Shown here: positions 30 to 34,968 of the stretch, piece after piece
How positions within the stretch are numbered: the stretch's first letter is position 1
Layout: each line of letters opens with the position of its first letter
Origin: Candidatus Aeolococcus gillhamiae
Lineage (GTDB): Bacteria; Chloroflexota; Dormibacteria; Aeolococcales; Aeolococcaceae
Direction of reading: 5' to 3'
Assembly: GCA_003244045.1 (NCBI GenBank)
Contig: QHBU01000256.1
Coordinates: 1-64,000 of the forward strand
DNA length: 64,000 nt
Program-made: the position numbers and the translations under genes
Notes under the pieces: generated by a model
Told to the model about the DNA's origin: nothing
Databases searched by the model: none
The model's input: only the letters and a program-made list of their open reading frames with translations

Positions 30-518
30 GTGCCCAGAACCTCACGTCATCAACTTCCGGCTGACGACCTCGCCGGCGTGCCGCTCGACGAGGCGCCGAC
101 GCGCCGGACCCGTCTGCGCCGCGGTGGTCCGCGCACGCCGCTGCCCCTGCTGCCGCTGATCGCGGCGCTGGCCGGGGTGGGTGTGGCGTACGTCAGCCAG
201 AGCGCCCATTCGACGCAGGCGACCTACCAGGCCGCGGCCCAAGCCCAGCAGAACCAGCAGCTGCGCGCCCAGGCGGGGCAGCTCGGCGATGACCTCGCGC
301 GGCTGGAGAGTGCCGAACGAATCGTGGCCGCCGCGCAGAAGCTGGGCATGCGCCCCGCGGGGCACTGGTCGTACGTGGACGCGCAGCTCAAGACGGTCGT
401 CGACCTTCCCGCGCCGGTGGTGGCCACGCAGGCGGGCTCGGCGGACCCACTCCAGCAGTTCGTTGCCGGCGTGGGCGCCGCGTTCGGTGTTCACGGCACG
501 CGTGGCGGGTCGCCGTGA
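30..518 (+). CDS. ftsL: FtsL-like septum formation protein
   Basis: Small bitopic protein in the FtsL position, directly before ftsI. An Arg-rich cytoplasmic N-terminus (residues 1-36) is followed by one membrane helix (about 37-57) and an Ala/Gln-rich stretch predicted to be coiled coil (about 62-105), then a short region with 'KLGMRPAG', which resembles the end of the FtsL/DivIC fold. FtsL proteins scaffold the FtsQ-FtsL-FtsB complex that activates FtsW/FtsI. Sequence similarity in this family is weak, so the call rests on topology and position. The frame is open to the left edge, so the GTG used here is the first available start and the true start may lie outside the window. It overlaps ftsI by 4 bases (GTGA). 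Confidence 0.7.
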   Translation: MPRTSRHQLPADDLAGVPLDEAPTRRTRLRRGGPRTPLPLLPLIAALAGVGVAYVSQSAHSTQATYQAAAQAQQNQQLRAQAGQLGDDLARLESAERIVAAAQKLGMRPAGHWSYVDAQLKTVVDLPAPVVATQAGSADPLQQFVAGVGAAFGVHGTRGGSP

Positions 519-2278
519 GCCGGCGCCGCGCGCCCGCGACACCGCCGCGGGTGCGCGGCTGGTTCGTCGCCGATTCGCCTGACTTCCGGCATCGCGGCGT
601 CTGGCTGGCCCTGGCCTTTGCGGCGATGGCGATCACGCTGTGCGCGCGCCTGTTCGACGTCCAGATGTTGCAGCACACCACCCTGGCCGCGCGGGCGGCG
701 GCGCTGCACCAGAAGTCGGTGACCATAGCAGCCACTCGCGGCCGGATCCTCGACAGCAGCGGGCGGGTCCTCGTGAGCAACCGCACGGTGTACGACGTCT
801 ACGCCGATCCCGGGCTGATCGCTGCCTCTACCCGGGAAGACGCGGCCCGCCAGCTCGGCCCCGTTCTCTCCATGGACGCCACGGCAGTCGCCTCGCTCAT
901 CTCGGAGCCGACCCGCTTCGTGTACCTGGCCAAGGCCGTGTCACAGGACATCAGCGACCGGCTCAACGCGCTCAACCTTGCCGGTGTCGTGGTGGTGCCG
1001 GCCCAGCAGCGCGTCTACGAACCCTCGCCGGTGACGGGGACGTCATTCGCCGCCAACCTTCTCGGCTACGTCGATCACAGCGGCACCGGCCAGTACGGCA
1101 TCGAGTCGTACTACAACACCGTGCTGCACGGCACCGACGGCCACCAGTCGACCGTCCGTGACGTCGCCGGCAACTCGATCACGCTGAGCAATGACCCGCA
1201 GTCCGAGGCGCACAACGGCCAGGACCTCCAGCTCGGGCTGGACTCCGAGGTGCAGTACTGGGCCGAGCAGGCGATCGCGCAGGGCGTGGCCACGGCGCAG
1301 GCGGCGTCCGGCACCCTGATCATGATGGACACCAAGACCGGCGTCATCCGCGCCTGGGCACAGGCGCCGACGTACGACGCCAACTCGTACTGGACCTCGC
1401 AGATCGCCAGCTTCCGCGACCTCGCGGTGGCCAATGTCTATGAGCCGGGATCGGTGGAGAAGGTGGTCACCTTCGCGGGAGGCTTGAACTCCGGCGCGAT
1501 CACGCCCGGCTACACGTTCAATGAGGCACCCACCACCATCGACGGATACACCATCCGCGACTGGGACGGCCGCGCCCACGGCACCATCTCCATGCAGACG
1601 GTGCTCGACGAGTCGCTCAACAACGGCGCCATCAAAGTCGGCCAGCTGATGGGGGCCAACAACTTCTACAGCAACCTGCTGGCCTTCGGCATGGGCGCGC
1701 CCACCGGGGTCGACCTCTTCGGCGAGCAGAACGTGCCCCTGCCGCCGCAGAACAAGTTGAGCGCCCTGGACCTGGCCGAGGCTGCCTTCGGGCAGCGCGT
1801 GCAGGTGACCCCGATCGAGGTCCTAGCCGCCTTCAACGCGGTCGCCAACGGCGGCGTCTGGGTGCAGCCGCACGCGGTGCAATCGGTGATCGACAGGACA
1901 ACCGGCACGACGGCGTCGGTGGTGCCGACGACGCGGCGGATCATCTCGCCCCAGGCGGCGGCGACGCTCGCTCAGATGATGACCGGGGTCGTCGAGGACC
2001 GTGGCGGAGAGGGTTCGCTGGCGCGCATCCCCGCGTTCAAGAGGCAGGTGGCCGGCAAGACCGGAACGGCGAGCGTCGCGACGCACGGACAGTACGGCAA
2101 CGACGTGGTTGTGTCCTTCGGCGGTTTCCTCCCCGCCAAGAACCCGCGCTTCACCATGCTGGTGGTGCTCAACTACCCGCACGAGACCGGCGTCGTGCGC
2201 TTCGGCGCCACCCTCGCCGCGCCGGTCTGGAAGCAGGTCGCACAGGTCGCCATCGACCAGTGGCGCATCACCCCGTGA
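515..2278 (+). CDS. ftsI: Peptidoglycan transpeptidase FtsI (class B PBP)
   Basis: Septal D,D-transpeptidase that cross-links peptide stems and works with the glycosyltransferase FtsW. One N-terminal membrane anchor (about residues 27-46) is followed by a dimerization/pedestal domain and a transpeptidase domain. The three penicillin-binding motifs are visible: SVEK with the acyl-accepting serine near residue 313, SLN near 367, and KTGT near 515. The protein ends soon after the catalytic domain at 587 aa, so there are no PASTA repeats. GTG start overlaps the upstream stop; its own stop overlaps the mraY start. murE and murF, which often follow ftsI, are absent at this point. Confidence 0.95.
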   Translation: MSRRRAPATPPRVRGWFVADSPDFRHRGVWLALAFAAMAITLCARLFDVQMLQHTTLAARAAALHQKSVTIAATRGRILDSSGRVLVSNRTVYDVYADPGLIAASTREDAARQLGPVLSMDATAVASLISEPTRFVYLAKAVSQDISDRLNALNLAGVVVVPAQQRVYEPSPVTGTSFAANLLGYVDHSGTGQYGIESYYNTVLHGTDGHQSTVRDVAGNSITLSNDPQSEAHNGQDLQLGLDSEVQYWAEQAIAQGVATAQAASGTLIMMDTKTGVIRAWAQAPTYDANSYWTSQIASFRDLAVANVYEPGSVEKVVTFAGGLNSGAITPGYTFNEAPTTIDGYTIRDWDGRAHGTISMQTVLDESLNNGAIKVGQLMGANNFYSNLLAFGMGAPTGVDLFGEQNVPLPPQNKLSALDLAEAAFGQRVQVTPIEVLAAFNAVANGGVWVQPHAVQSVIDRTTGTTASVVPTTRRIISPQAAATLAQMMTGVVEDRGGEGSLARIPAFKRQVAGKTGTASVATHGQYGNDVVVSFGGFLPAKNPRFTMLVVLNYPHETGVVRFGATLAAPVWKQVAQVAIDQWRITP

Positions 2279-3237
2279 AGCACGCCGCCCTCGTCGGACT
2301 GCTGGCATTTGTCGCAGGGGTCGCAGGGTACCCGTGGCTCACCACGCAGCTGGCCAGACGTGGAGCCGGACAGCGCGTGCAGTCCTACAGCCCGCAGTCA
2401 CACATGATCAAGATGGGCACGCCGACCATGGGAGGGCTGCTCTTCTGCGCGATCACGCTGGCTGCATGTCTGGTCTTCGATCGCACCCGCATTGGTTTCG
2501 TGGTGGTGTTCGCGCTGTGCGCAGGTGCGCTGGTCGGCGTCCTCGACGACCGTGACAATGTGCGTGGACGGGGTGTGTTCGGGCTCGGTGCATACCAGAA
2601 GATCGGCTTCCAGGCATTCGTCGGGCTGCTCGTCGGCATCGGGCTCGACATCGTCGGGGCCACGCGCCAGCTGTTCCCCGGTCTCGGGGCGCCCGACCTG
2701 CACGGCGCCGGGATCATCCTGGTGAGCATCCTGGCGGTGATCGCGGTGAGCAACGCGGTCAACCTCACCGACGGGGTCGACGGACTCGCGGCGGGCTGTT
2801 CGCTGGTGGTGTTCGCCGGCCTCCTGGCTGTCGCTCTCCACCAGCACGCGCTCCCTGTCGTCATCGTCAGCGCCGCGCTGGTGGGGGCCCTGGCGGCCTT
2901 CCTCGTCTTCAACTGGTTCCCGGCGCGCATCTTCATGGGCGACACGGGCTCGCTGGCGCTCGGCTGTGCGCTGGTGGCGGCCGCCGCCGAGCTGCACCTT
3001 CTCTGGTTTCTGCCGCTCATGGGGATCGTCTTCGTCGCCGAGACCTTGAGCGTCATCATCAATGTGACCGTCATCCGCCGCTTCCACCGCAGGCTGCTGC
3101 GCGCCAGCCCGCTGCATCACCACTTCGAAGAGCTTGGACTCCGCGAGCGACGCCTGGTCGCCTGCTTCGTCGCGGCGGCGGCCGCCGGCACGCTGCTCAC
3201 GGTGCTGTACGCGCGCTCGCGCGGCGCGGTGGCGTGA
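2275..3237 (+). CDS. mraY: Phospho-MurNAc-pentapeptide transferase MraY
   Basis: Integral membrane enzyme that transfers phospho-MurNAc-pentapeptide from UDP to undecaprenyl phosphate, giving lipid I. Family signatures are clear: KMGTPTMGG after the first helix, DDRDN, NLTDGVDGLA, FMGDTGSLALG and the SPLHHHFEELG loop. About ten hydrophobic helices fit the known fold. The ORF track starts at 2260, but GTG at 2275 overlaps the ftsI stop in the GTGA manner used throughout this cluster and gives the usual N-terminus (MKHAALVGLL), so 320 aa is preferred. It lies between ftsI and murD in a single tight operon. Confidence 0.95.
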   Translation: MKHAALVGLLAFVAGVAGYPWLTTQLARRGAGQRVQSYSPQSHMIKMGTPTMGGLLFCAITLAACLVFDRTRIGFVVVFALCAGALVGVLDDRDNVRGRGVFGLGAYQKIGFQAFVGLLVGIGLDIVGATRQLFPGLGAPDLHGAGIILVSILAVIAVSNAVNLTDGVDGLAAGCSLVVFAGLLAVALHQHALPVVIVSAALVGALAAFLVFNWFPARIFMGDTGSLALGCALVAAAAELHLLWFLPLMGIVFVAETLSVIINVTVIRRFHRRLLRASPLHHHFEELGLRERRLVACFVAAAAAGTLLTVLYARSRGAVA

Positions 3238-4586
3238 CCGAGCGCGCCGTGGTGATCGGCCTCGGCCGCAGCGGGCTCGCCTGCGCACGCGTTCTCGCCG
3301 GCGATGGCTACGAGGTGCTGGTGGTGGATGGTCGCGACGACGCGCTCCTGCGCGAGGTCGCCGCTGCGCTGCCGGGCACCGTCCAGGCCCAGCTCGGCGG
3401 CTACGACCCGGACGTGGTTCGTGGTGCCGCGATCGTCTGCCCCTCCCCGGGGGTGCCGTGGACGGCGCCTGAGCTCGACCTCGCGCGCACGCTCGGCATC
3501 CCGGTGCGCAGCGAGATGTCACTGGTGTTCGAACGGTGCCGCGGCCGGATCGTCGGCATCACCGGCACCAACGGCAAGACCACCACCACCAGCCTGTGCG
3601 CGGCGGTGATCGCTCGCGACGGGCGCCGCGTCCACCTCGGCGGCAACATCGGCGACACCATCCTCGACCGGCTCGACGACGTCGGCAGCGGCGACTGGGT
3701 GGTGCTCGAGCTCTCCTCCTTCCAGCTGGAATCGGTGGACCAGCCGCGCTGTGAGATCGCCGCGGTTCTCAACATCAGCCCTGATCACCTCGATCGCCAT
3801 GGCACCCTGGCGGCGTACATCGCCGCCAAGCAGCGCATCGTCGAGCACGCGGTGTCGTGCACGGTGCTCGGCTGGGACGACCCGGTGACCCGCGCCATGG
3901 CCGCGGCCAGCAGCGCACCGGTGCGCTTCTTCGGCTCGGCGTTGGAGGGCGTCGACGGGGCCACCGTCGACGGTGACACCGTCACCATCGTGGAGGCAGG
4001 TGCGACGGAGCCGGTGATCCCGGTTGCCGACATCCCGCTGTTCGGCGCCCACAACGTGCTCAACGTCCTCGCCGCCACCGCCGTCGGGCAGGCGGCCGGG
4101 GTGGCCAAGTCGGACATCGCCGCCGCTGTGCGCGAGTTCACGGCGGTGCCGCACCGCCTGCAGGTGGTGCTCGACTCGGGCGGTGTGCTCTGGATCAACG
4201 ACAGCAAGGCGACCAACGTCGACGCCGCCACCCGCGCGCTGCAGTCGTTCGACCGCCCGATCATCTGGATCGGTGGCGGTCACACCAAGGGCGTAGCACC
4301 CGACGAGCTCGCCGACGCGGTGGCCCACGCCGCGCGCTTCGCGATTCTCAACGGTGACACCGCAGCCGAGCTCGACGCTGCGCTGGCGCAACGCGGCTAC
4401 GGTGAGCGCGCGGTCGTCGCCGACCAGCACTCCGCTGTTGCCCTGGCCGCGCAGATGGCGCGTCCCGGTGACGTGGTCCTCCTCGCGCCCGGCTACTCGA
4501 GCTTCGACCAGTTCCGCAACTTCGACGAACGCGGCAGCGCCTTCGCCGAAACGGTCCGCGCCATTGCCGCCGGCAGGGCGCGCTGA
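3234..4586 (+). CDS. murD: UDP-MurNAc-L-alanine:D-glutamate ligase MurD
   Basis: Cytoplasmic ATP-dependent ligase that adds D-glutamate to UDP-MurNAc-L-Ala. It has a Rossmann-like N-terminal domain (VIGLGRSGLA), the Mur ligase P-loop GITGTNGKTTTT near residue 105, the NISPDHLDRH motif of the central domain, and the NDSKATN motif at the start of the C-terminal domain. Its 450 residues are normal for the family. GTG start overlaps mraY by 4 bases, and its stop shares one base with the ftsW start (TGATG), so translational coupling is likely. Confidence 0.95.
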   Translation: MTERAVVIGLGRSGLACARVLAGDGYEVLVVDGRDDALLREVAAALPGTVQAQLGGYDPDVVRGAAIVCPSPGVPWTAPELDLARTLGIPVRSEMSLVFERCRGRIVGITGTNGKTTTTSLCAAVIARDGRRVHLGGNIGDTILDRLDDVGSGDWVVLELSSFQLESVDQPRCEIAAVLNISPDHLDRHGTLAAYIAAKQRIVEHAVSCTVLGWDDPVTRAMAAASSAPVRFFGSALEGVDGATVDGDTVTIVEAGATEPVIPVADIPLFGAHNVLNVLAATAVGQAAGVAKSDIAAAVREFTAVPHRLQVVLDSGGVLWINDSKATNVDAATRALQSFDRPIIWIGGGHTKGVAPDELADAVAHAARFAILNGDTAAELDAALAQRGYGERAVVADQHSAVALAAQMARPGDVVLLAPGYSSFDQFRNFDERGSAFAETVRAIAAGRAR

Positions 4587-5845
4587 TGGCTGCACGCAGC
4601 CGCCCGCTCGCCGTCCCGGCACTGCGCCTGCGCGAGACGCTGACCGGCGGCCGCACCCTGAGCCTCGGCGGCGTCGACGGATGGCTGCTCACCGACATCG
4701 CGGCGCTCTGCGCGTTCGGGCTGGTCATGGTCTACAGCGCCAGCGAGGCCCTCGGCTTCCTCTGGTTCGAGAACGCCAACTACTTCTTCGAGCGGCAGCT
4801 GGTGGGCATGGGGCTCGGTGTCGCCGCCCTGGTGATCCTCGCGCGCATGGACTACCACCGCCTCCGCCGCCTGGCCCCGGTGCTCGCGCTCTGCCTGGTG
4901 GCGATGCTCATCCTCGTCCTGCTGCCGCATTTCGGGACCGCGGCCAACGGGGCGAGACGCTGGTTCACGGTGGGTCCGCTCTCGGTGCAGCCCTCGGCGA
5001 TCGCCATCCTCGTCTCGGTGCTGTTTTTCTCGAAGTGGCTGGTCGACCGCGCGCCGGCGGTGCGCAGCGTCCGTGGCGTGCGCGACTACGGGTTACTGGT
5101 CGGCGTGCTGCTCGCGCTGGTGCTGCTGGAGCGCGACCTGGGCAGCAGCATCATCATCGCCGGAACCGCGCTCGTGCTTCTCGCTCTCGCCGGCGTTCGC
5201 AAGCGACACATGCTGGTGCTGCTCGGCGTGGTTCTGGTGGGCGGGTACCTCCTGATCATGCTGGTCGCCTACCGGTCGAGCCGGCTCAGCACCTTCACGC
5301 ATCCCTGCGACGACGCTTTGAACACCGGCTTCCAGGCCTGCCAGGCTCTCTACGCGCTGGGCAGCGGCGGCCTGGGGGGCGTGGGCCTGGGCAATTCGGT
5401 GCAGAAATACCAGTGGCTTCCCGAGGCGCACACGGACTTCATCTTCGCGATCATCGGCGAGGAGCTCGGGCTGCTTGGAACCGTCTCGGTGATCCTGGCG
5501 TTCACACTCCTGCTGTGGCGAGGAGTGCGGGCCTCGCTGCGCGCGCCCGACGCTTATGGGGCACTTCTCGCCGGAGGCATCACTGCGTGGATCGGCATCG
5601 AGGCGTTCGTCAACATCGGAGCCGTCACCGGTGTGATCCCGACCACGGGCATCCCGCTGCCCTTCATCAGCTACGGGGGTACCTCGCTGGCGATGACGCT
5701 GGCGGGTGTCGGCATCCTCTGCAACGTCTCGGCGCAGGGCCGCAGACAGGGGGTGACCGTTCGTGCGCACGTTGATCGCCGGCGGCGGGACGGGTGGCCA
5801 CCTGACGCCGGTCCTGGCGATGGCCCAGGAGCTGCGCCGCGCTGA
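4586..5845 (+). CDS. ftsW: SEDS glycosyltransferase FtsW
   Basis: Polytopic SEDS-family peptidoglycan polymerase that uses lipid II at the septum together with FtsI. It begins with about 40 cytoplasmic residues, then about ten membrane helices. Recognisable family features are NYFFERQLVG, the loop around WLPEAHTDFIFAIIGEELG and the terminal block TTGIPLPFISYGGTS. After the last helix the reading frame continues about 30 residues into an Arg/Pro-rich tail that overlaps murG by 83 bases. The tail is odd: the conserved part ends at 'GRRQG', just before the murG start. Confidence 0.94.
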   Translation: MAARSRPLAVPALRLRETLTGGRTLSLGGVDGWLLTDIAALCAFGLVMVYSASEALGFLWFENANYFFERQLVGMGLGVAALVILARMDYHRLRRLAPVLALCLVAMLILVLLPHFGTAANGARRWFTVGPLSVQPSAIAILVSVLFFSKWLVDRAPAVRSVRGVRDYGLLVGVLLALVLLERDLGSSIIIAGTALVLLALAGVRKRHMLVLLGVVLVGGYLLIMLVAYRSSRLSTFTHPCDDALNTGFQACQALYALGSGGLGGVGLGNSVQKYQWLPEAHTDFIFAIIGEELGLLGTVSVILAFTLLLWRGVRASLRAPDAYGALLAGGITAWIGIEAFVNIGAVTGVIPTTGIPLPFISYGGTSLAMTLAGVGILCNVSAQGRRQGVTVRAHVDRRRRDGWPPDAGPGDGPGAAPR

Positions 5846-6866
5846 TCCGACCGGCGAGGTGCTCATCGTCGGACGTCATGGCGGCGTCGCCGAGGACCTG
5901 GTGACCGCCGCCGGGTTCCGGCTCGAGACCCTGCGCATCTCCGGCCTGGACGTTGGCAACGCCGTCAGCGTCGCCCGCTTCGCCGCGCTGCTTCCCGCGG
6001 CGGTGCGTGCGGCGCGACGGATCATCCGCGACTTCCGCGCCGACGTGGTCATCGGCGGAGCGGGCTACGTCAGCGTGCCCGTCGTGCTGGCGGCTCGCTC
6101 GCTGCGCATCCCCGTCGCGCTGCTCGAGCAGAACGCGATCCCCGGCCGGGCCACGCGCCTGCTGGCACGCCGCGGCACGCTCGTGGCGGCTGCCTTCGCG
6201 GAGACTGCGGTCTCACTCCCGCACGCGCGCGTCGTGCACACCGGCAATCCGATCAGGGCCGAGGTGCTCGCCACCCCGCTGCGCGAGCTCGGCGAGACCT
6301 GCGAACGGCTGCTGGTGATGGGCGGCTCGCAGGGGGCGCGGCGCATCAACCGCGCGGTCGCCGGCTGCGTCGAGCGCCTGCTGGCCCGGCACCCGACGCT
6401 GCAGGTCACCCATCAGACCGGTGCGCTGGACGCCGACGAGATTGAGGCGGTGGCGGCTGGTCTGCCCGCCGAGCTGCGCCGGCGCTGGACGAGGGCGCCA
6501 TTCATCCAGGACGTCGGCGCCGCCATCATGTGGTCCGACCTGGTGCTGATGAGGGCGGGAGGTTCGTCGGTCGCCGAGTGCTCCGCCCTGGGTCGGCCGA
6601 TGATCCTGGTGCCCTACCCACACGCCGGAGACCACCAGCGTTTCAACGCGGCGCCTTTCGTCCAGGCGGGCGCGGCGCGGGTCATCCCGGATGACGAGTG
6701 CGATCCGCAGCGCGCGGCCGCCGAGGTGGAGGCGCTGGTCGACGACCCGGATGCCTGGCGGCACATGGCGGTGCACAGCGCCCAGCTCGGTCGGCGCGAC
6801 GCGGCCCCGCGGGTGCTCGAGCTGATGCGCCGGCTGACGGCCCCTCCGGCGAGAATCCCACGGTGA
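5763..6866 (+). CDS. murG: UDP-GlcNAc:undecaprenyl-PP-MurNAc-pentapeptide GlcNAc transferase MurG
   Basis: Membrane-associated GT-B (GT28) glycosyltransferase that turns lipid I into lipid II. The N-terminal glycine-rich loop GGGTGGHLTP starts at residue 7 and fixes the GTG start, which has a purine-rich ribosome-binding stretch (caggggg) about 10 bases upstream. GGAGYVSVP and LLEQNAIPG mark the acceptor domain; MGGSQGARRIN and RAGGSSVAECSALGRPMILVPYP mark the UDP-GlcNAc-binding domain. It overlaps ftsW by 83 bases and its stop overlaps the next start (GTGA). The length of 367 aa is normal. Confidence 0.95.
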   Translation: MRTLIAGGGTGGHLTPVLAMAQELRRADPTGEVLIVGRHGGVAEDLVTAAGFRLETLRISGLDVGNAVSVARFAALLPAAVRAARRIIRDFRADVVIGGAGYVSVPVVLAARSLRIPVALLEQNAIPGRATRLLARRGTLVAAAFAETAVSLPHARVVHTGNPIRAEVLATPLRELGETCERLLVMGGSQGARRINRAVAGCVERLLARHPTLQVTHQTGALDADEIEAVAAGLPAELRRRWTRAPFIQDVGAAIMWSDLVLMRAGGSSVAECSALGRPMILVPYPHAGDHQRFNAAPFVQAGAARVIPDDECDPQRAAAEVEALVDDPDAWRHMAVHSAQLGRRDAAPRVLELMRRLTAPPARIPR

Positions 6867-8263
6867 CCGAACACGTGCACTTCCTGGGGATCTGCGGGTA
6901 CGCGGTGAGCGGCGCGGCGCTGCTGGCGCGCGAGCAGGGCTGGCGCGTCTCGGGGTCGGACGACCAGGCGTACCCGCCGACCACTGACAGCCTCACCGCC
7001 GCCGGCGTCGACTGGGTGGACGGCAGCGACCCCGCCAATCTGGAACGGTGGGGCGTCCCCGACCTGGTGGTGGTCGGCAACCAGACCCGTGCGAGTAACC
7101 CGGAGTGGCTGGCGGCGCGCGAGCGCGGCTTGGCCACCCTCAGTGAGATCGAGTTCTACCTCCGCCTTACCTCTGACCGGGTGCGCATCGCCGTGTGCGG
7201 GACGCACGGCAAGACAACCACGTCCTCCCTGCTCGCCCACATGCTCGACGCCTGCGGGATGGACCCGGGGTTCAGGCTGGGCTCGACCTCGCTTGACCTC
7301 GGCGGAACCGCGCGGCTCGGCAGCGGGCCGTTCGTGTTCGAGGGCGACGAGTACAGCACCGCCCCCTGGGACCGGCGCCCAAAGTTCCTCCACATCCACC
7401 CGCAGGCGGCATGCGTCACGCGGCTCGAGCTCGACCATCCCGACATCTACCCGACCCTGGACGCGTACCGGGCGCCATTCGTCGAGCTGGCGCAGACCAT
7501 GCCTGAGGGCGGCCTGCTGGTGTTGTGCGCCGACGACCCGGAATGCGTTGCCCTGGCGCGGCACGCGTCCTGCCGGGTGACCACGTATGGGCGCGCGGAG
7601 ACAGCCGACTGGCGTGTGGAGCTCGGCGGCGACGCCGGCAACATCCAGCACTTCACGATCATCCATGGCGACGAGGTGCACGCCACAGCACTCACCTTTC
7701 CGGGCACGCATAGCGCGCTCAACGCCACGGCCGCGCTGCTTCTGGCTGTCGCGGGAGGCGCCCCGCTGCAGCGATGCATCGACGCATGCGCCGGGTTTCG
7801 CGGCCCGGCGCGCCGTTTCGAGGTGCTCGGCGCGGTGGGCGGGATCACGGTGGTCGACGACTACGCGCACCATCCGACCGAGGTCGAGGTGACGATTGCA
7901 GCGGCGCGTCAGCGCTACCCGGGGCGGCGCATCGTCGCGATCCACACGCCGCACACCTACTCGCGCACGTACACGCTTCTCGACGACTACGCGCGCAGCT
8001 TCACGGGTGCCGACGTCGTCGTCCTCGGGCCCATCGAGGAGGCCCGTGAGCGCGGCATGGCTGCCACCGTGAGCAGCCACGACGTCGCCGCCAAGGCCGG
8101 CGACGGCAGGCCCGTGCACGTGGTCGCGTCGTCGGCGGAGGCCGTCGAGCTGATCACGCGCCTCGCCCGCTCCGGTGACGTGCTGCTCGTCCTCTCGCTG
8201 GGCGGTTTCGACAAGATCGCCCAGCGACTGGTGGCCGCGCTGGAGGTCGCTCATGTCCACTGA
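6863..8263 (+). CDS. murC: Mur ligase in the murC position, Mpl-like sequence
   Basis: ATP-dependent Mur ligase between murG and murB, where UDP-MurNAc:L-alanine ligase is expected. The P-loop is CGTHGKTTTSSL (about residue 113) and the C-terminal motif is DDYAHHPTEV. Several blocks look more like Mpl (the murein tripeptide recycling ligase) than classical MurC: LGICGYAVSGAALL, SGSDDQAYPP near the N-terminus, and EGDEYSTAPWDRRPKFLHIHP in the central domain. Position argues for MurC activity, sequence for Mpl ancestry; the sequence alone does not settle the substrate. The track's start at 6698 lies inside murG; GTG 6863 gives the conserved N-terminus and the usual overlap (466 aa). Confidence 0.8.
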   Translation: MTEHVHFLGICGYAVSGAALLAREQGWRVSGSDDQAYPPTTDSLTAAGVDWVDGSDPANLERWGVPDLVVVGNQTRASNPEWLAARERGLATLSEIEFYLRLTSDRVRIAVCGTHGKTTTSSLLAHMLDACGMDPGFRLGSTSLDLGGTARLGSGPFVFEGDEYSTAPWDRRPKFLHIHPQAACVTRLELDHPDIYPTLDAYRAPFVELAQTMPEGGLLVLCADDPECVALARHASCRVTTYGRAETADWRVELGGDAGNIQHFTIIHGDEVHATALTFPGTHSALNATAALLLAVAGGAPLQRCIDACAGFRGPARRFEVLGAVGGITVVDDYAHHPTEVEVTIAAARQRYPGRRIVAIHTPHTYSRTYTLLDDYARSFTGADVVVLGPIEEARERGMAATVSSHDVAAKAGDGRPVHVVASSAEAVELITRLARSGDVLLVLSLGGFDKIAQRLVAALEVAHVH

Positions 8264-9179
8264 CTGGCTCCAGCGCTGGCCCGGGTTGCGCCGCGACGAG
8301 CCGCTGGCGCGCCACAGCCAGTTCGGCATTGGCGGGCCGGCGGACATGTTCCTGCGTCTCGATGAGCTGGCGGTCGTCGCCGAGCTGGTGGCACGCTGCA
8401 CGGAGAGCGGCGTGCCGCTCACCATCCTGGGCGCGGGAAGCAACGCGCTCGTCCTCGACGGTGGCGTTCGTGGCCTGGCGCTGCGGCTGATGACCAAGGA
8501 CCTCGCCGTCGCGGACGGCGTGGCGACGTTCGCAGCGGGGACCATGCTGCCGCGCGCCGCACTCGACCTGGCGGCCGCCGGGTGGACGGGGATGGAGTGG
8601 GGCATCGGCGTTCCCGGCAGCTGCGGCGCGTCTATCTGGGGGAACGCGGGCGCGTTCGGCGGCGACGTCGAGGGCAGCCTCGTCGAATGCGAGGTGGTCG
8701 CACCCGACGGCACCACGCGCTGGATCGCTGGCGCCGACTGTGCATTCGGCTACCGCGACTCGCGCTTCAAGCACGACCTCTCCGGCCACGTCGTGCTGCA
8801 CGGCCGCTTCACTGTCGTCGCCGATGACATCGCCACGGTGCGTGCGCGCACGCACGCGGTGCAGTCGGAACGCAAGCGCACCCAGCCATACGGCGTGCGC
8901 AGCCTGGGCAGCACGTTCAAGAACCCACCCGGCGACTTCGCCGGCCGGCTCCTCGAGGCGGCCGGGCTTGCTGGTCGCAGCCACGGCGGAGCCCGGATCT
9001 CGCCCAAGCACGCCAACTTCATCCTCAACGTCGACCACGCCAGCGCAGCCGACGTGCTCGCCCTCGTCCACTGCGCGCGCGACGAGGTCGCGTCTCGGTT
9101 TGACGTCGTGCTGGAACGCGAGATCGTACTGCTCGGGGAGCCGGCGTCCGATGCCGTCGCCGCGCAGACCGCGCCATGA
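8253..9179 (+). CDS. murB: UDP-N-acetylenolpyruvoylglucosamine reductase MurB
   Basis: FAD enzyme that reduces UDP-GlcNAc-enolpyruvate to UDP-MurNAc with NADPH. The FAD-binding blocks LGAGSNALVLDGGVRG and GIGVPGSCGASIWGNAGAFGG are intact, and GSTFKNP carries the serine that protonates the intermediate. The C-terminal HANFILNV block is typical. ATG 8253 overlaps the upstream ligase by 11 bases and gives 308 aa; the longer track start (8175) would add residues read out of frame from the upstream gene. Its stop overlaps ddl (ATGA). Confidence 0.95.
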   Translation: MSTDWLQRWPGLRRDEPLARHSQFGIGGPADMFLRLDELAVVAELVARCTESGVPLTILGAGSNALVLDGGVRGLALRLMTKDLAVADGVATFAAGTMLPRAALDLAAAGWTGMEWGIGVPGSCGASIWGNAGAFGGDVEGSLVECEVVAPDGTTRWIAGADCAFGYRDSRFKHDLSGHVVLHGRFTVVADDIATVRARTHAVQSERKRTQPYGVRSLGSTFKNPPGDFAGRLLEAAGLAGRSHGGARISPKHANFILNVDHASAADVLALVHCARDEVASRFDVVLEREIVLLGEPASDAVAAQTAP

Positions 9180-10369
9180 GCACGATCGGAGTCATCTTCG
9201 GCAGCCGCTCGGTGGAGCACGAGGTGTCGGTGATCACCGCGCACCAGGCGATGGCGGCGCTGTCGCAGGCGCATCGGGCGCTTCCCGTGTACATCGCCAA
9301 GGATGGCCGCTGGTTCACCGGCGAGGCGTTGACCCAGCTGAGCAGGTTCGCCAACGCAGATGCGCTGCTCGCCGACTGCACGGCGGTGACGCCCGGCATT
9401 GACCCGGCGCGACACGGTCTTGCGCTGCTGCCGGTGGAGGGGCCGCGGCGCGGCCTGTTCGGGCGCGGCGCCGGCGACCCGCTCGACATCGACGTAGCGA
9501 TGCCGCTGGTGCACGGCAGCTTCGGCGAGGACGGCACGCTCCAGGGCCTTCTCGAGATGGCGTCGATCCCCTACACCGGCAGCGGCGTGGCCGCGTCGGC
9601 CGTGGCCATGGACAAGCGACTGGCCAAGACGGTCCTCCGCGGCGCCGGGCTCCCCGTCCTCGATGACGTGGTCATCGGCAGGGACGATTGGCACGCGGAC
9701 AGCACCGCCGGCGTCGCCGCGGCCGAGGCCCTGGCGCCGTACCCCCTGTACGTCAAACCGGTGAGCCTCGGCTCCAGCATCGGCGTCTCTCGGGCGTCCG
9801 ACGCCGCCGCACTCCGTGCGGCGGTCGAGGTCGCGCTCACCTACGACACGCGCTGCCTAGTCGAGCCGGCGCAGGAGCGGATCATCGAGATCAACTGCGC
9901 GGTGATCGGCGACCACTCAGTGGCCCGGCCCTCGCTCCTCGAACAACCAACCAAGCGAGGCCTCCTCAGCTACGACGACAAGTACCGCGCCGGCGGATCG
10001 AAGTCGGGGGCAGCGAAGTCGACCGGGATGAAGAGCGCGCAGCGAATCGTGCCGGCGCCTCTGGACGACGCGCTAGGAGCGCGGATCACGGAGGCTGCGC
10101 TGGCCGCCTTCGCGGCGGTCGGTGCCTCGGGCGTGGCGCGCATCGACTTCATGGTCGACACCGAACACTCGTCGTTCGTGGTCAATGAGCTGAACCCGAT
10201 CCCGGGATCGCTCTCCTTCTATCTCTTCGAGCCCGCAGGGCTCTCATTCCCCGCGCTCATCGACGAGCTCATCGACATCGCGCGCCGGCGGCACGCCGCT
10301 CATCTCGCCAGCACCGTGGTGTTCGAGCCCTGGATGCTCGGCGGCGGCGGCTCCAAGACCTCACGGTGA
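9176..10369 (+). CDS. ddl: D-alanine--D-alanine ligase
   Basis: ATP-grasp ligase that makes the D-Ala-D-Ala dipeptide for the MurF step. Visible blocks: FGSRSVEHEVSV at the N-terminus, HGSFGEDGTLQGLLE, IPYTGSGVAASAVAMDK, KPVSLGSSIGV (nucleotide grip), the omega-loop region SYDDKYRAGG, RIDFMVD, and NELNPIPGS, which binds Mg and the second substrate. These follow D-Ala-D-Ala rather than Van-type D-Ala-D-Lac ligases. At 397 aa it is somewhat long because of an insertion around residues 70-100. ATGA overlap with murB and GTGA overlap with the next gene. Confidence 0.93.
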   Translation: MSTIGVIFGSRSVEHEVSVITAHQAMAALSQAHRALPVYIAKDGRWFTGEALTQLSRFANADALLADCTAVTPGIDPARHGLALLPVEGPRRGLFGRGAGDPLDIDVAMPLVHGSFGEDGTLQGLLEMASIPYTGSGVAASAVAMDKRLAKTVLRGAGLPVLDDVVIGRDDWHADSTAGVAAAEALAPYPLYVKPVSLGSSIGVSRASDAAALRAAVEVALTYDTRCLVEPAQERIIEINCAVIGDHSVARPSLLEQPTKRGLLSYDDKYRAGGSKSGAAKSTGMKSAQRIVPAPLDDALGARITEAALAAFAAVGASGVARIDFMVDTEHSSFVVNELNPIPGSLSFYLFEPAGLSFPALIDELIDIARRRHAAHLASTVVFEPWMLGGGGSKTSR

Positions 10370-11136
10370 CGACCGCCACGGCCGAGGCGCCCGCCGCCGC
10401 GGTCCTCGACTCCGGCGCCGGACCCGCTGTGCTCCTTCTCCACGGCTGGGGGGCGACCAAGGAGCTGATGAACCCGGTCGCGGTGCGGCTGCAGGGATAT
10501 CGCGTCGTCATCCCCGACCTCCCCGGCTTCGGTGCCACCCCGGCACCGCCACAGGCGTGGGGCGTCGACGAGTACGCCGCGTGGGTCATCGCGCTCCTCG
10601 CCAGGCTCGGCATCGAGCGCGCCCACGTCGTCGGCCACTCCAACGGCGGCCGGATCGCCATCGCGCTCGCTGCGGCACACCCCGAACGCGTCGACAGGCT
10701 GGTGCTCACCAACAGCGCCGGGATCCGGCCGCGCCACGGGGTGCGGGATTGGCTGCGCGTGCGCACCTTCAAGCTGCTGCGCGCCGCCTCGCGGTGGGGT
10801 TGGCTGCCCGCCGGCGTGCGCAGGGAGGCGGAACGCCGCGCAGCGCAACGCGGCAGCGCGGACTACCGCACCGCGTCGGGCACGCTGCGGTCCAGCATGG
10901 TGCGCCTGGTCAATGCCGACATGCGCCCGCAACTGGCTCGGCTGTCCGCATCCACGCTGATCATCTGGGGTGACCAGGACCGGGAGACGCCGCTTCCCGA
11001 CGCGCGCACCATGGAGGCGCTGATCCCCGACGCGGGCCTGGTGGTGTTCGAGGGGGCGGGCCATTTCGCGTACGCGGAGCAACCGGACCGCTTCTGCCGC
11101 ATCGTCGACGTCTTCCTGCGCGGGGAAGGGCGGTGA
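10366..11136 (+). CDS. Alpha/beta hydrolase within the dcw cluster
   Basis: Alpha/beta-hydrolase fold protein of 256 aa. The oxyanion-hole motif LLHGWGATKEL, the nucleophile elbow GHSNGG (serine near residue 89), the acid region WGDQDRETPLP and the catalytic histidine in GAGHFAYAEQPDRF form a complete triad. There is no signal peptide, so it should be cytoplasmic. Substrate unknown. It is translationally coupled on both sides (ddl before, the MurF-like ligase after). An esterase or amidase acting on a cell-wall precursor or carrier is a possibility by context only; a general esterase is equally consistent with the sequence. Confidence 0.85.
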   Translation: MTTATAEAPAAAVLDSGAGPAVLLLHGWGATKELMNPVAVRLQGYRVVIPDLPGFGATPAPPQAWGVDEYAAWVIALLARLGIERAHVVGHSNGGRIAIALAAAHPERVDRLVLTNSAGIRPRHGVRDWLRVRTFKLLRAASRWGWLPAGVRREAERRAAQRGSADYRTASGTLRSSMVRLVNADMRPQLARLSASTLIIWGDQDRETPLPDARTMEALIPDAGLVVFEGAGHFAYAEQPDRFCRIVDVFLRGEGR

Positions 11137-12785
11137 CCGACGGGCTCCAGGGAGCGCTCGTCGCGCTCGCCGGCGCGGGCTGGCTGGCGCTGCTCGCGCG
11201 AGCGGTGCTGGTCGCCGCGCGCATGTTCCAGATCGAGGAGTACGAGGCACCACGGCTCTTCGACTGGGGCGGCACGCGCGCGTGGTCGCTGCACACATCG
11301 GCGCTGGCCGCGGCTGCACCGGTGGCGGTGGCGACGCTGTTCAGCGTGGCCGACCTCGCGCGACCGGGACTGCGCCTGGCTCTGGCCGCGAGCTGGCTCG
11401 TGGGGGTGGCCGCAGCGCAGGCGGTGTGGCGATGGTTGCCCCCCAAGAAGGAGCTCGTGTTCACGCCGCGGATGCGCCGGCTCCTGGCCACCACGGCGCT
11501 GCTTGCCGCGCTGCTCGGTGCCCTGGTCTGCATCGCTGTAGAGCTGGCCCCGCCCTGGCTGGGGGGTGCCGCCGCGGCCGTCATCGGGATCGGTGTCACC
11601 ACGCTGGCGCTGGTCCTGCCGGCGACGGCCAACATCATCAACGCGCCTGTCGAGGCACAGGTTCGCCGCGGCTTCCTGCGCCACGCCCGCCGCCGGCTCG
11701 AGGCCGTCCATCCCCTGGTGATCGCCGTCGCCGGAAGCTACGGCAAGACCTCCACCAAGCACATCCTCGCGGAGATGCTCGAGCGCTACGGACCCACCCT
11801 GGCGACGCCGAAGAGCTTCAACACACTGATGGGCGTCTCCAAGACGATCAACCAGAACCTCGAGGACCGTCACCGTACGTTCGTTGTGGAGATGGATGCG
11901 TACGGACCCCGTGAAATCGCCTCCATCTGCGCGCTGGTGCATCCCACGCACGCCCTGCTGACGTCTGTCGGGCCGCAGCACCTCGAGCGCTTCGGCACCA
12001 TCGAGCGCATCGGCGACGCGCTCTACGAGACCATCGACGCGCTGCCCACCGACGGCTTCGCGGTGGTCTACGCGGGCGACCAGCAGACGGCTGGCCTGGC
12101 CGCGCGCGCCCGTGCGGCGGGTCACGAGGTGATTCGCTACGGGATCGAAGACGGTTCCGCAGACGTCGATGTTGTGGCCGCGAATGTCCAGATCACGGGG
12201 ACCGGTTCGCGGTTCACGTGGCGCTGGACAGCCGCCGGCCTCGAGCACGACATCGCCGTCCCGCTTCTCGGCCGCCACCAGGTGCTCAATGTCAGCGCGG
12301 CTCTCGCCACCGTTCACAGGCTCGGCCTGCCGCTCGAACCCGCGTTGGACGCGGTGGCATCGCTGCGGCCGGTCGATCACCGCCTCCAGCCGGTGGCCAC
12401 GGGCAACGCGATCACGGTCATTGACGACAGCTACAACGCCAACCCCGTCGGCGTGCACAACGGGCTCGAGGTGCTGGCCGAGATGGATGCCCGGCAGCGC
12501 ATCCTGGTCACCCCTGGCCTGGTCGAGCTGGGCTCGGTGGAGGACGCCGAGAACCGCCGCTACGGAGAGCACGCCGCGCAGGTATGCGACCACGTCATCG
12601 TCATGGACGCGCGCCCGGCGCGAGCGCTCCGTGAGGGGCTGCACGCCGGCGGAATGCCCGACGACCACGTGCACCTGGTGCGGTCGCTCGTGCAGGCCAC
12701 CGAGGTGATCGGCGGCATCGCCGGTCCGGGAGACGCGGTGCTGTTCGCCAACGACCTTCCGGACACCTACCTGGGCGCCGCCTGA
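11133..12785 (+). CDS. Membrane-embedded MurF-like Mur ligase
   Basis: Two-part protein of 550 aa. Residues 1 to about 175 hold four or five hydrophobic helices (around 10-30, 55-75, 80-95, 112-135 and 140-160). The rest is a Mur ligase with P-loop AGSYGKTSTKHI near residue 199, TPKSFNTLMGVS, the central-domain block FVVEMDAYGPREI and the C-terminal DDSYNANP motif typical of MurF. It probably joins D-Ala-D-Ala to UDP-MurNAc-tripeptide, consistent with ddl two genes upstream and no other murF here. Standard MurF is soluble, about 450 aa, with a different N-terminal domain; here that domain is replaced by membrane helices. GTG start overlaps the hydrolase stop. Confidence 0.85.
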   Translation: MTDGLQGALVALAGAGWLALLARAVLVAARMFQIEEYEAPRLFDWGGTRAWSLHTSALAAAAPVAVATLFSVADLARPGLRLALAASWLVGVAAAQAVWRWLPPKKELVFTPRMRRLLATTALLAALLGALVCIAVELAPPWLGGAAAAVIGIGVTTLALVLPATANIINAPVEAQVRRGFLRHARRRLEAVHPLVIAVAGSYGKTSTKHILAEMLERYGPTLATPKSFNTLMGVSKTINQNLEDRHRTFVVEMDAYGPREIASICALVHPTHALLTSVGPQHLERFGTIERIGDALYETIDALPTDGFAVVYAGDQQTAGLAARARAAGHEVIRYGIEDGSADVDVVAANVQITGTGSRFTWRWTAAGLEHDIAVPLLGRHQVLNVSAALATVHRLGLPLEPALDAVASLRPVDHRLQPVATGNAITVIDDSYNANPVGVHNGLEVLAEMDARQRILVTPGLVELGSVEDAENRRYGEHAAQVCDHVIVMDARPARALREGLHAGGMPDDHVHLVRSLVQATEVIGGIAGPGDAVLFANDLPDTYLGAA

Positions 12786-33152: not shown

Positions 33153-33617
33153 ATGGCACTTCTCACCGTTGGCGACCCGGCCCCGGACATCACCGCGCGC
33201 AGCCGCGACGGCACGACGCTCACGCTGTCGTCCCTGCGAGGACGCCACGTGTTGGTGTACTTCTATCCCAAGGACGATACGCCGGGATGCACGGCCGAGG
33301 CCTGCGGTCTCAACGACAACCTCACCGCCCTGTCCGAGAGCGGGGCCGATGTAATCGGCGTCAGCACCGACAGTTGGGAGTCACACCAGCGGTTCGCCGA
33401 GAAGTACGGGCTGAAGTTCGCGCTTGCGTCCGACCGTGACAAGAGCATCCGCAAGGCATATGGCGTCGGCAAGATGCTCGGCATCCTCCCCGCCGTGCAG
33501 CGCGTGTCTTTCCTCGTCGGACCGGACGGCAGGATCGTCCACGTGTGGCCCAAGGTCGAAGCCGCGCGCCACGCCGCCGACGTCCTTCAGGAGGTGCGCA
33601 GCCAGCGGGCTGCATAG
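33153..33617 (+). CDS. bcp: Thiol peroxidase Bcp (AhpC/TSA family)
   Basis: Peroxiredoxin that reduces hydroperoxides using thioredoxin. Peroxidatic Cys in TPGCTAEACGLND, with the resolving Cys five residues later as in BCP/PrxQ; YFYPKDDTPGCT and GVSTDSWESHQRFAEKYGL are family blocks. 154 aa. 'aaaggag' 9 bases before ATG is a clear ribosome-binding site and TACGCT 22 bases upstream a likely -10. It is the last chromosomal gene before the mobile element. Confidence 0.94.
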   Translation: MALLTVGDPAPDITARSRDGTTLTLSSLRGRHVLVYFYPKDDTPGCTAEACGLNDNLTALSESGADVIGVSTDSWESHQRFAEKYGLKFALASDRDKSIRKAYGVGKMLGILPAVQRVSFLVGPDGRIVHVWPKVEAARHAADVLQEVRSQRAA

Positions 33618-33646
33618 CCGGCTGCGGGTCCAGGTGAGGACGGATC

Positions 33647-33670
33647 TGGAGGCGCCGGGAATCGAACCCG
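33647..33670. repeat. attL-type direct repeat (displaced ssrA 3' end)
   Basis: 24 bases identical to 43390-43413, reading on the minus strand as the T-arm and 3' acceptor strand of the tmRNA. The surrounding sequence has no other tmRNA part, so this is the fragment separated from ssrA on integration. Confidence 0.85.
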
Positions 33671-33771
33671 ACGGGGGGTGTTTCAGGCCGTCGCAGCGCG
33701 TGTCAGGACGTCGATTTGAATACGCCGACCGTCCGCACACGTGTCAGGCGTTGTCAGCGCGTTGCACCGGG

Positions 33772-33792
33772 TTGGCTTCAGAATTGGCTTCA
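33772..33792. repeat. Probable integrase arm site, left end
   Basis: Two direct copies of ttggcttca separated by 3 bases; the second overlaps the integrase stop codon. The same 21 bases with one mismatch occur near the right end (43328-43348). A paired repeat at both termini fits an arm-type integrase binding site. Confidence 0.55.
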
Positions 33793-34968
33793 CCCGTCGG
33801 CTGTCCTGCGCCCGGTCAGAGCCGCCTCCAGTCGGTCGGCGGCGTCTCGAAGCACTGCCGTTCGGACGTGCGTGTACGTCTCGAGGGTGACTGCGGTTGT
33901 CGAGTGCCCAAGCATCTCGCTGATTGTTTTCGGTTCGACACCAAGCGAGAACAGGAAGGACGCTGCGGAGTGCCGCAGGTCGTGGAACCGCACGCGCGGA
34001 ACGCCGCCGCGGATCAGCAGCGCTTCGTACGCGCGACGGAAGCTGGTGATGGCCAATGCCCGGCCGTGAGGGCCGGTGAACACCAGGTCCGCCCCGGGCT
34101 CCGGTCCGTCCCACAGCCGTCCCGCCGCCAGCCTCTCCTCCGCCTGGCGTGCGCGCTGAGCCCGCAGGGCGACGACGGCAACGTTGACCAGAGGCAGACC
34201 TCGCTGCTTGCTCGCTCGTCGTTTTGGGGACGAGTAGATCGCGTCTGGCGACTCTTGTCCGCCCAAGGCGCGGCGCGAAGCCCTGGTGCGTGTTCGTAGC
34301 ACGCGATATTCACGCCGTTCTAGATCCACATCTGTCCAACGCAGACCGAGGAGCTCGCCTCGTCGTCGGCCGGTAGTGAGCGCCAGCACCCACATTGCCG
34401 CGAATGGATCCGCACCTGCAGCGATCAGAAGGCGGCCCGCCTGCTCCTCGTCGAGAGTGGTGATTTCCGTGTCTGCTCGACGCGGCACGGACACCAGGCT
34501 CGCGGGATTGCGCGAGATGAGTCCGTCGCGCACGGCGTCCGCCAACGCTCGGTGCAATGTCGTCTGGAAATGTCCGACCGTTGTCGGCGACCACCGGCCG
34601 CTCGCGAGCTTACGTCCCTGCCACGCGACTATATCGAGACGGCGCAGTCGGGACAGGCGCATATGCCCGAGATCGGGTATCAAGTGAACGCGGATGTGGC
34701 CCTCGAAGCTGTCCCACGCCGAGGGCTTGATCGTCCCGCGCATCCCCTCGATCCAGCGGAACAGGAAGTCGCGAAGGAGCACGCGGTCGTCGGGCACGTC
34801 CTCACCCTTCTTCAGTGCGGCGATCGCCGCGAACATGCGGGCTACCACGTCGGCGCGCGTCCGACCGTAGAAGTGCTTGCGGCGACCGTCGGAGAGGCTG
34901 ACACGGGCTACCCAGCGCCCGCGGTAGCGTCCGACTGTTCCCTCGCCGTTGCCGCGCCTTCCTGCCAC
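33790..34968 (-). CDS. int: Tyrosine site-specific integrase
   Basis: Phage/ICE-type tyrosine recombinase of 392 aa. An N-terminal AP2-like arm-binding segment (GTVGRYRGRWVARVSLSDG) and SAM-like core-binding domain precede the catalytic domain, which has the first Arg in TTGRRRGELLGLRW, HDLRHSAASFLF (HxxR), and the His and nucleophilic Tyr in GHSTTAVTLETYTHV. It should catalyse integration/excision between the 24-bp repeats. It starts 10 bases after the xis stop, so int and xis form one operon. Confidence 0.93.
   Translation of the reverse strand: MAGRRGNGEGTVGRYRGRWVARVSLSDGRRKHFYGRTRADVVARMFAAIAALKKGEDVPDDRVLLRDFLFRWIEGMRGTIKPSAWDSFEGHIRVHLIPDLGHMRLSRLRRLDIVAWQGRKLASGRWSPTTVGHFQTTLHRALADAVRDGLISRNPASLVSVPRRADTEITTLDEEQAGRLLIAAGADPFAAMWVLALTTGRRRGELLGLRWTDVDLERREYRVLRTRTRASRRALGGQESPDAIYSSPKRRASKQRGLPLVNVAVVALRAQRARQAEERLAAGRLWDGPEPGADLVFTGPHGRALAITSFRRAYEALLIRGGVPRVRFHDLRHSAASFLFSLGVEPKTISEMLGHSTTAVTLETYTHVRTAVLRDAADRLEAALTGRRTADG

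Follow-up and report, generated by a model that had tools for sequence, protein, structure and literature searches.

The gene that lies between murG and murB in this Chloroflexota genome occupies the slot of murC and carries signatures of Mpl, and it raises the question of whether its product starts the stem peptide as a MurC or is a recycling enzyme. The window, which is the whole stretch of DNA analyzed (64,000 nucleotides, or 64 kb), belongs to contig C256; the genome (2.96 Mb, 302 contigs) is 84% complete with an estimated contamination of 5.9%. Its gene order is ftsI, mraY, murD, ftsW, murG, murC-slot ligase, murB, ddl, alpha/beta hydrolase, MurF-like gene and ftsQ (Table 1). The ligase gene (6863-8263) starts with GTG, encodes 466 amino acids, and is overlapped at its 3′ end by the reading frame of murB. 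The first-pass annotation had placed the gene correctly between its two neighbors, and both peptides that it quoted, SGSDDQAYPP and EGDEYSTAPWDRRPKF, are present. It regarded the gene as matching Mpl rather than classical MurC and supposed that the stem-peptide pathway may have been rearranged. The results below favor another answer, that the ligase is the predicted MurC of the cell, coming from a loop-bearing branch that lies deep in the MurC/Mpl superfamily, an answer to which we give a probability of about 0.85.

Table 1. Features of the division cluster and of the murC-slot ligase, in positions of the window
Feature	Position	Strand	Remark
ftsI, followed directly by mraY (2260-3237); neither murE nor murF between	515-2278	+	
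murD	3234-4586	+	TIGR01087, 379.6 bits
murG, overlapping the start of the ligase gene	5763-6866	+	
murC-slot ligase, loop-bearing MurC (predicted); Mpl-type N and middle domains, MurC-type C domain	6863-8263	+	466 aa
YPP, residues 37-39, Mpl-type N-domain signature (Tyr37 = Tyr35 of Psychrobacter Mpl)	6971-6979	+	PMC3060825
ATP-binding loop GTHGKTTT, residues 113-120	7199-7222	+	sequence
Mpl-type loop YSTAPWDRRPKF at residues 164-175, including the 7-residue insert that canonical MurC lacks	7352-7387	+	
DDYAHHPTEV, residues 332-341; Tyr334 and His336 = Tyr346 and His348 of Haemophilus MurC (amino-acid contacts)	7856-7885	+	PMC3060825
PHTYSRT, residues 363-369; His364 and Arg368 = His376 and Arg380 of Haemophilus MurC	7949-7969	+	
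SLGGFD, residues 445-450, in the C-terminal strand; Ser shared with Mpl, whereas most MurC have Gly	8195-8212	+	
murB; start codon uncertain, longest ORF from 8175	8256-9179	+	
D-Ala-D-Ala ligase (ddl)	9176-10369	+	
MurF-like ligase in which TM-like stretches replace the N-terminal UDP-binding domain	11133-12785	+	

Inspection of the protein confirmed two hallmarks of Mpl, YPP and a 7-residue loop insert (EYSTAPWDRRPKF). The loop, with the motif (S/T)AFFDKRSK, was described as a hallmark of Mpl that is absent from all other Mur ligases (PMC3060825). The insert (residues 168-174) was present in 15 of 15 relatives and 13 of 13 Mpl but was absent from all 57 canonical MurC, and Tyr37, the Y of YPP, was distributed in a similar manner (15/15, 12/13 and 0/57, respectively). 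Compared with the described motif, the loop keeps the insert and the invariant Asp188 and Lys192, and the other positions have drifted (TAPWDRRPK). In the N-terminal and middle domains, Tyr35, Asn69 and Ser90 are likewise of the Mpl type and, with the loop, count against the MurC reading; Tyr182 also agrees with Mpl but is found in many MurC. When the literature was searched, only the 2011 paper on the Mpl structure (PMC3060825) was found to bear on the loop, and neither a paper on a loop-bearing MurC nor an enzyme assay for the loop-bearing family was found.

The C-terminal domain, in contrast, has the MurC-type signature PHTYSRT, where Mpl has PRSNT or PRSxx. The amino-acid contacts of Haemophilus MurC are Tyr346, His348, His376, Arg377 and Arg380, and a list of Mpl-specific residues is available from the same study (PMC3060825). 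Here after, f1 to f4 denote families inside one class of 110 genomes, and the ligase gene belongs to f1. Four of the five contacts for L-Ala (Tyr346, His348, His376 and Arg380) were invariant in all 15 sequences of the loop-bearing family, and the fifth, Arg377, is replaced by Thr, as it is in 23 of 23 other Chloroflexota MurC. Mpl-specific Glu402 and Arg404 were found in none of the 15 sequences; Phe374, Glu402, Arg404, Asn406 and Asn484 of the Mpl C domain correspond to Tyr, Val/Thr, His, Tyr/Phe and Val/Leu, respectively. Thus the first-pass assignment to Mpl holds for YPP and the loop, but the C domain is of the MurC type and the murC profile scores higher than that of mpl.

A similar division was observed in the mean identity of each domain. 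The N domain is slightly nearer to Mpl (35.8%) than to Chloroflexota MurC (32.1%), the middle domain, when the insert is left out, is about equally near to both (34.4% and 36.2%, respectively), and the C domain is nearest to Chloroflexota MurC (38.7%, against 30.0% for Mpl). Choosing between MurC and Mpl by overall pairwise identity was abandoned, since the values for E. coli Mpl (33.2%) and E. coli MurC (34.0%) were undecisive.

In the profile search, the ligase scored 342.6 bits with TIGR01082 (murC), passing the cut-off of 335.1 by only 7.5 bits, and 272.8 bits with TIGR01081 (mpl), failing the cut-off of 388.7; no genome of the class had a match over the latter. One near-full-length murC match was obtained in 57 of the 68 f1-f3 genomes, with 269-353 bits, and the other 11 genomes had fragments at contig ends or no match. 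Only 18 of the 57 full-length members exceeded the TIGR01082 cut-off and 39 were below it, which counts against the MurC reading. None of the 57 genomes had a second full-length copy of the MurC/Mpl type, the next match reaching about 135 bits at most. The source genome encodes five Mur_ligase_M proteins, namely MurE, the MurF-like protein, MurD, the present ligase and FolC, and the search for further murC copies that the first-pass annotation had called for left this ligase as the only one of the MurC/Mpl type found. With a completeness of 84%, the assembly could lack a second murC, but such an absence is implausible for all the relatives. In the f3 genome G061 (contig C121, region 33431-34779), the loop-bearing murC appeared as two adjacent matches, 33431-34156 and 34165-34740, possibly by a frameshift or an assembly error.

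We compared an AlphaFold model, built on a 12-sequence alignment (mean pLDDT 88.2), with the PDB. The top twelve matches were all MurC entries, the best being the ligand-bound Haemophilus MurC 1p3d (TM 0.90), and full-length Mpl 3hn7 ranked 13th (TM 0.74, rmsd 5.1 Å); this gap in TM may partly reflect domain closure rather than kinship, because apo MurC entries score lower too.

In unrooted trees of the full-length proteins, the N and middle domains, and the C domain, canonical MurC, the loop-bearing family and Mpl formed three clean groups. Three clades give a single topology, and unrooted trees alone cannot decide between MurC and Mpl; for this reason, the pocket residues and rooting with MurD were used. 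When the tree was rooted with MurD, with the loop columns removed and Patescibacteria included, all loop-bearing sequences including Mpl fell in one clade (99/97), in which some of the Patescibacteria forms were the sister group of the Chloroflexota family (99/95) and Mpl formed a separate inner branch (99/97). Without Patescibacteria, the family and Mpl were joined with 100/99, and a root with Mpl outermost was not rejected (p-AU 0.319). The family therefore lies firmly outside the canonical MurC clade, and a branch with strong support unites it with Mpl and the loop-bearing enzymes of Patescibacteria, in agreement with the first-pass suspicion of a non-classical MurC. This union counts against the MurC reading. 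The rooting of the MurC, Mpl and loop-bearing groups is not settled, and that Mpl arose from such loop-bearing enzymes is one reading of the tree and not a result of it.

The slot is conserved among the relatives, as murG-murC-murB in f1 and f3 and as murG-murC in f2. The f1 genomes include Candidatus Dormiibacterota MAG CP_BE_RX_48 (locus L085, the same match as G004), and f3 includes a genome labelled Chloroflexi bacterium CF_152 (L086). In f4, a canonical MurC is found downstream of murG and upstream of murB, with 370-459 bits where complete and only about 150-180 bits for mpl. According to the tree of FtsI, MraY, FtsW and MurG, the families are related as ((f1,f2),(f3,f4)), with 95/91 for f3 and f4, so that the canonical form in f4 stands next to the loop-bearing form of its sister f3. 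This distribution is most simply explained by an ancient presence of the loop-bearing form in the class, with replacement by the canonical form at the same site in f4. A natural exchange of this kind within one slot speaks for an identical function of the two. In f2 (L081, L283), neither murD in the interval from mraY to ftsW nor murB downstream of murC was detected by tblastn with the genes of the window; these genes may be elsewhere or too diverged.

Many of 145 Patescibacteria genomes have a related ligase. Among the best 30 loci, many have a C domain of the MurC type (PHTYSRT) in addition to the Mpl-type loop (e.g., L242, L244, L247, L248 and L251), and five loop-bearing examples are situated in murG-murC-murB (L297, L299, L301, L304 and L091). 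The loop-bearing murC-slot ligases of Patescibacteria (e.g., G427, G446, G436 and Candidatus Doudnabacteria G116) resemble the present one in the loop, the C domain and, in several cases, the cluster, and they differ from it in that the identity is about 34-39%, the loop is variable (e.g., EGDEYRSSQLDDSSKF) and YPP is missing in some. Two loci of true Mpl (L119, L127), inspected with wide flanks, had no mur neighbors. In four other Patescibacteria loci (L258, L259, L260 and L264), the best match in the genome was Mpl-like, having YPP or FPP, the loop, an EPNTGNR C domain and DD.AHSP in place of DDYAHHP, and three of the Mpl-like loci with wide flanks are near mraY, outside any murG-murC-murB cluster.

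Compared with known MurC (TIGR01082; PDB 1p3d of Haemophilus influenzae and 2f00 of E. coli), the ligase agrees in length, the three domains, the slot in the division cluster, the L-Ala contacts, the curated cut-off and the best structural match. It differs in the 7-residue Mpl-type loop, YPP, Asn69 and Ser90, in Thr for Arg377 (shared with other Chloroflexota MurC) and in its place outside the canonical clade. With Mpl (TIGR01081; PDB 3hn7 of Psychrobacter arcticus and 3eag of Neisseria) it shares YPP, Asn69, the loop residues Tyr182, Asp188 and Lys192, and the position in the tree; unlike Mpl, it does not have Gly91-Pro92 of SGP, Phe374, Glu402, Arg404 or Asn484, fails the cut-off, and is the sole copy found, in a mur cluster. 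The role of MurC is favored by the slot, the only copy found, the murC cut-off, the pocket residues, the structure match, the exchange in f4 and the slot in Patescibacteria.

Other explanations were weighed against this one. The Mpl-type signatures of the N and middle domains, and the maximum-likelihood tree joining the family to Mpl, would be expected if an Mpl had taken over the slot and served mainly in recycling while another enzyme adds L-Ala, which is the strong version of the first-pass reading. We consider this very improbable, since no other MurC-type ligase was found in the source genome or in the 57 genomes with a full-length copy, Glu402 and Arg404 are absent, the mpl cut-off was failed, and the Mpl loci L119 and L127 have no mur cluster context. 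Because E. coli Mpl, when overexpressed, can replace MurC and accepts L-Ala (PMC3060825), an Mpl recruited as MurC would also be compatible with the sequence alone. The same observation, together with the mosaic of Mpl-type and MurC-type features and the lack of a separate Mpl in the genomes of the family, could be explained by a bifunctional enzyme that uses L-Ala in synthesis as well as recycled peptides and keeps the loop for the second role. This is unlikely, because the residues proposed for the tripeptide site of Mpl are absent, Patescibacteria with small genomes have the loop too, and the loop is in the middle domain and not in the peptide-binding domain.

Two further explanations concern the origin of the mosaic. 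The difference between domains in nearest relative would fit a recombinant, in which the N and middle domains of Mpl were fused to a C-terminal domain of MurC. Nevertheless, the family formed its own group in the separate trees of the N and middle domains and of the C domain, and was never placed inside MurC or Mpl, and the gradation of the loop-bearing Patescibacteria forms fits shared ancestry better than one fusion; a fusion is thus not needed to explain the domain trees, and we regard it as rather improbable. The MurC-like function and context, the near-equal identity of the middle domain and the root with Mpl outermost would also fit a canonical MurC of the ordinary kind in which the loop arose by convergence, but the family remained outside canonical MurC when the loop columns were removed, and besides the loop it has Tyr35, Asn69 and Ser90 in common with Mpl, which makes convergence quite improbable.

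As a loop-bearing MurC, the ligase would use ATP to join L-alanine to UDP-MurNAc, the first step of the stem peptide, to be followed by MurD, MurE (encoded on another contig) and an enzyme of the MurF type. The loop-bearing branch was found in three families of one Chloroflexota class and in part of Patescibacteria; it has the Mpl-type loop in the domains for UDP-MurNAc and ATP and keeps the residues of MurC in the C-terminal domain, which binds the incoming amino acid. The substrate is presumably L-Ala, the loop probably packs onto the N domain in the manner described for Mpl, and Mpl would descend from such loop-bearing MurCs. As a more tentative proposal, which we hold to be possible but doubtful, the Chloroflexota (Dormiibacterota-type) and Patescibacteria enzymes may be surviving intermediates between MurC and Mpl, the latter having arisen mainly by change of the peptide-binding domain, and some of them perhaps take both L-Ala and recycled peptides. 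The loop-bearing family thus offers a testable route for the origin of Mpl from MurC, and f4 against f1-f3 is a natural swap of two MurC forms in one chromosomal slot. The Mpl loop is not diagnostic of Mpl. Since it occurs in a very probable L-alanine ligase, annotation based on the motif would wrongly assign an indispensable enzyme of biosynthesis to recycling.

The first-pass annotation correctly reported that no murE follows ftsI; because ftsI is directly adjoined by mraY, the cluster contains none. An intact MurE was found on contig C1 of the source genome (TIGR01085, 476 bits), and MurE over the cut-off was present in 54 of 61 genomes of relatives. Where both contigs were known, it was never on that of the division cluster (C69 versus C50 in G007, and C21 versus C9 in the f4 genome G057). 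As murE outside the cluster is common in the class, its position is no sign of a rearranged pathway. Together with the sole MurC/Mpl-type ligase, its MurC-type L-alanine pocket and the canonical MurC in the same slot in f4, this leaves the proposed rearrangement unsupported for murC and murE. The finding of murE elsewhere in the genome speaks against the first-pass reading, whereas the tree, in which the gene did not group with true MurC, does not.

A real sign of an altered pathway comes only from the unusual MurF. The MurF-like ligase, in which the middle and C domains are present, scores 192 bits with TIGR01143 (cut-off 288.6) and has about four TM-like stretches in the first ~165 residues. 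In 39 of 61 genomes (the source genome and its relatives), including f2 and many f1 genera, no MurF match over the cut-off was found, and mostly only the membrane form was present. Classical MurF therefore appears to be missing, and the D-Ala-D-Ala step may be carried out by the membrane MurF. Members of this MurF-like family were also seen in further Chloroflexota families, at times (e.g., in G205) beside another MurF-like match. In f2 (L277, L279, L282 and L286), the module of ddl, alpha/beta hydrolase and membrane MurF-like gene (9176-12785 in the window) recurs outside the division cluster.
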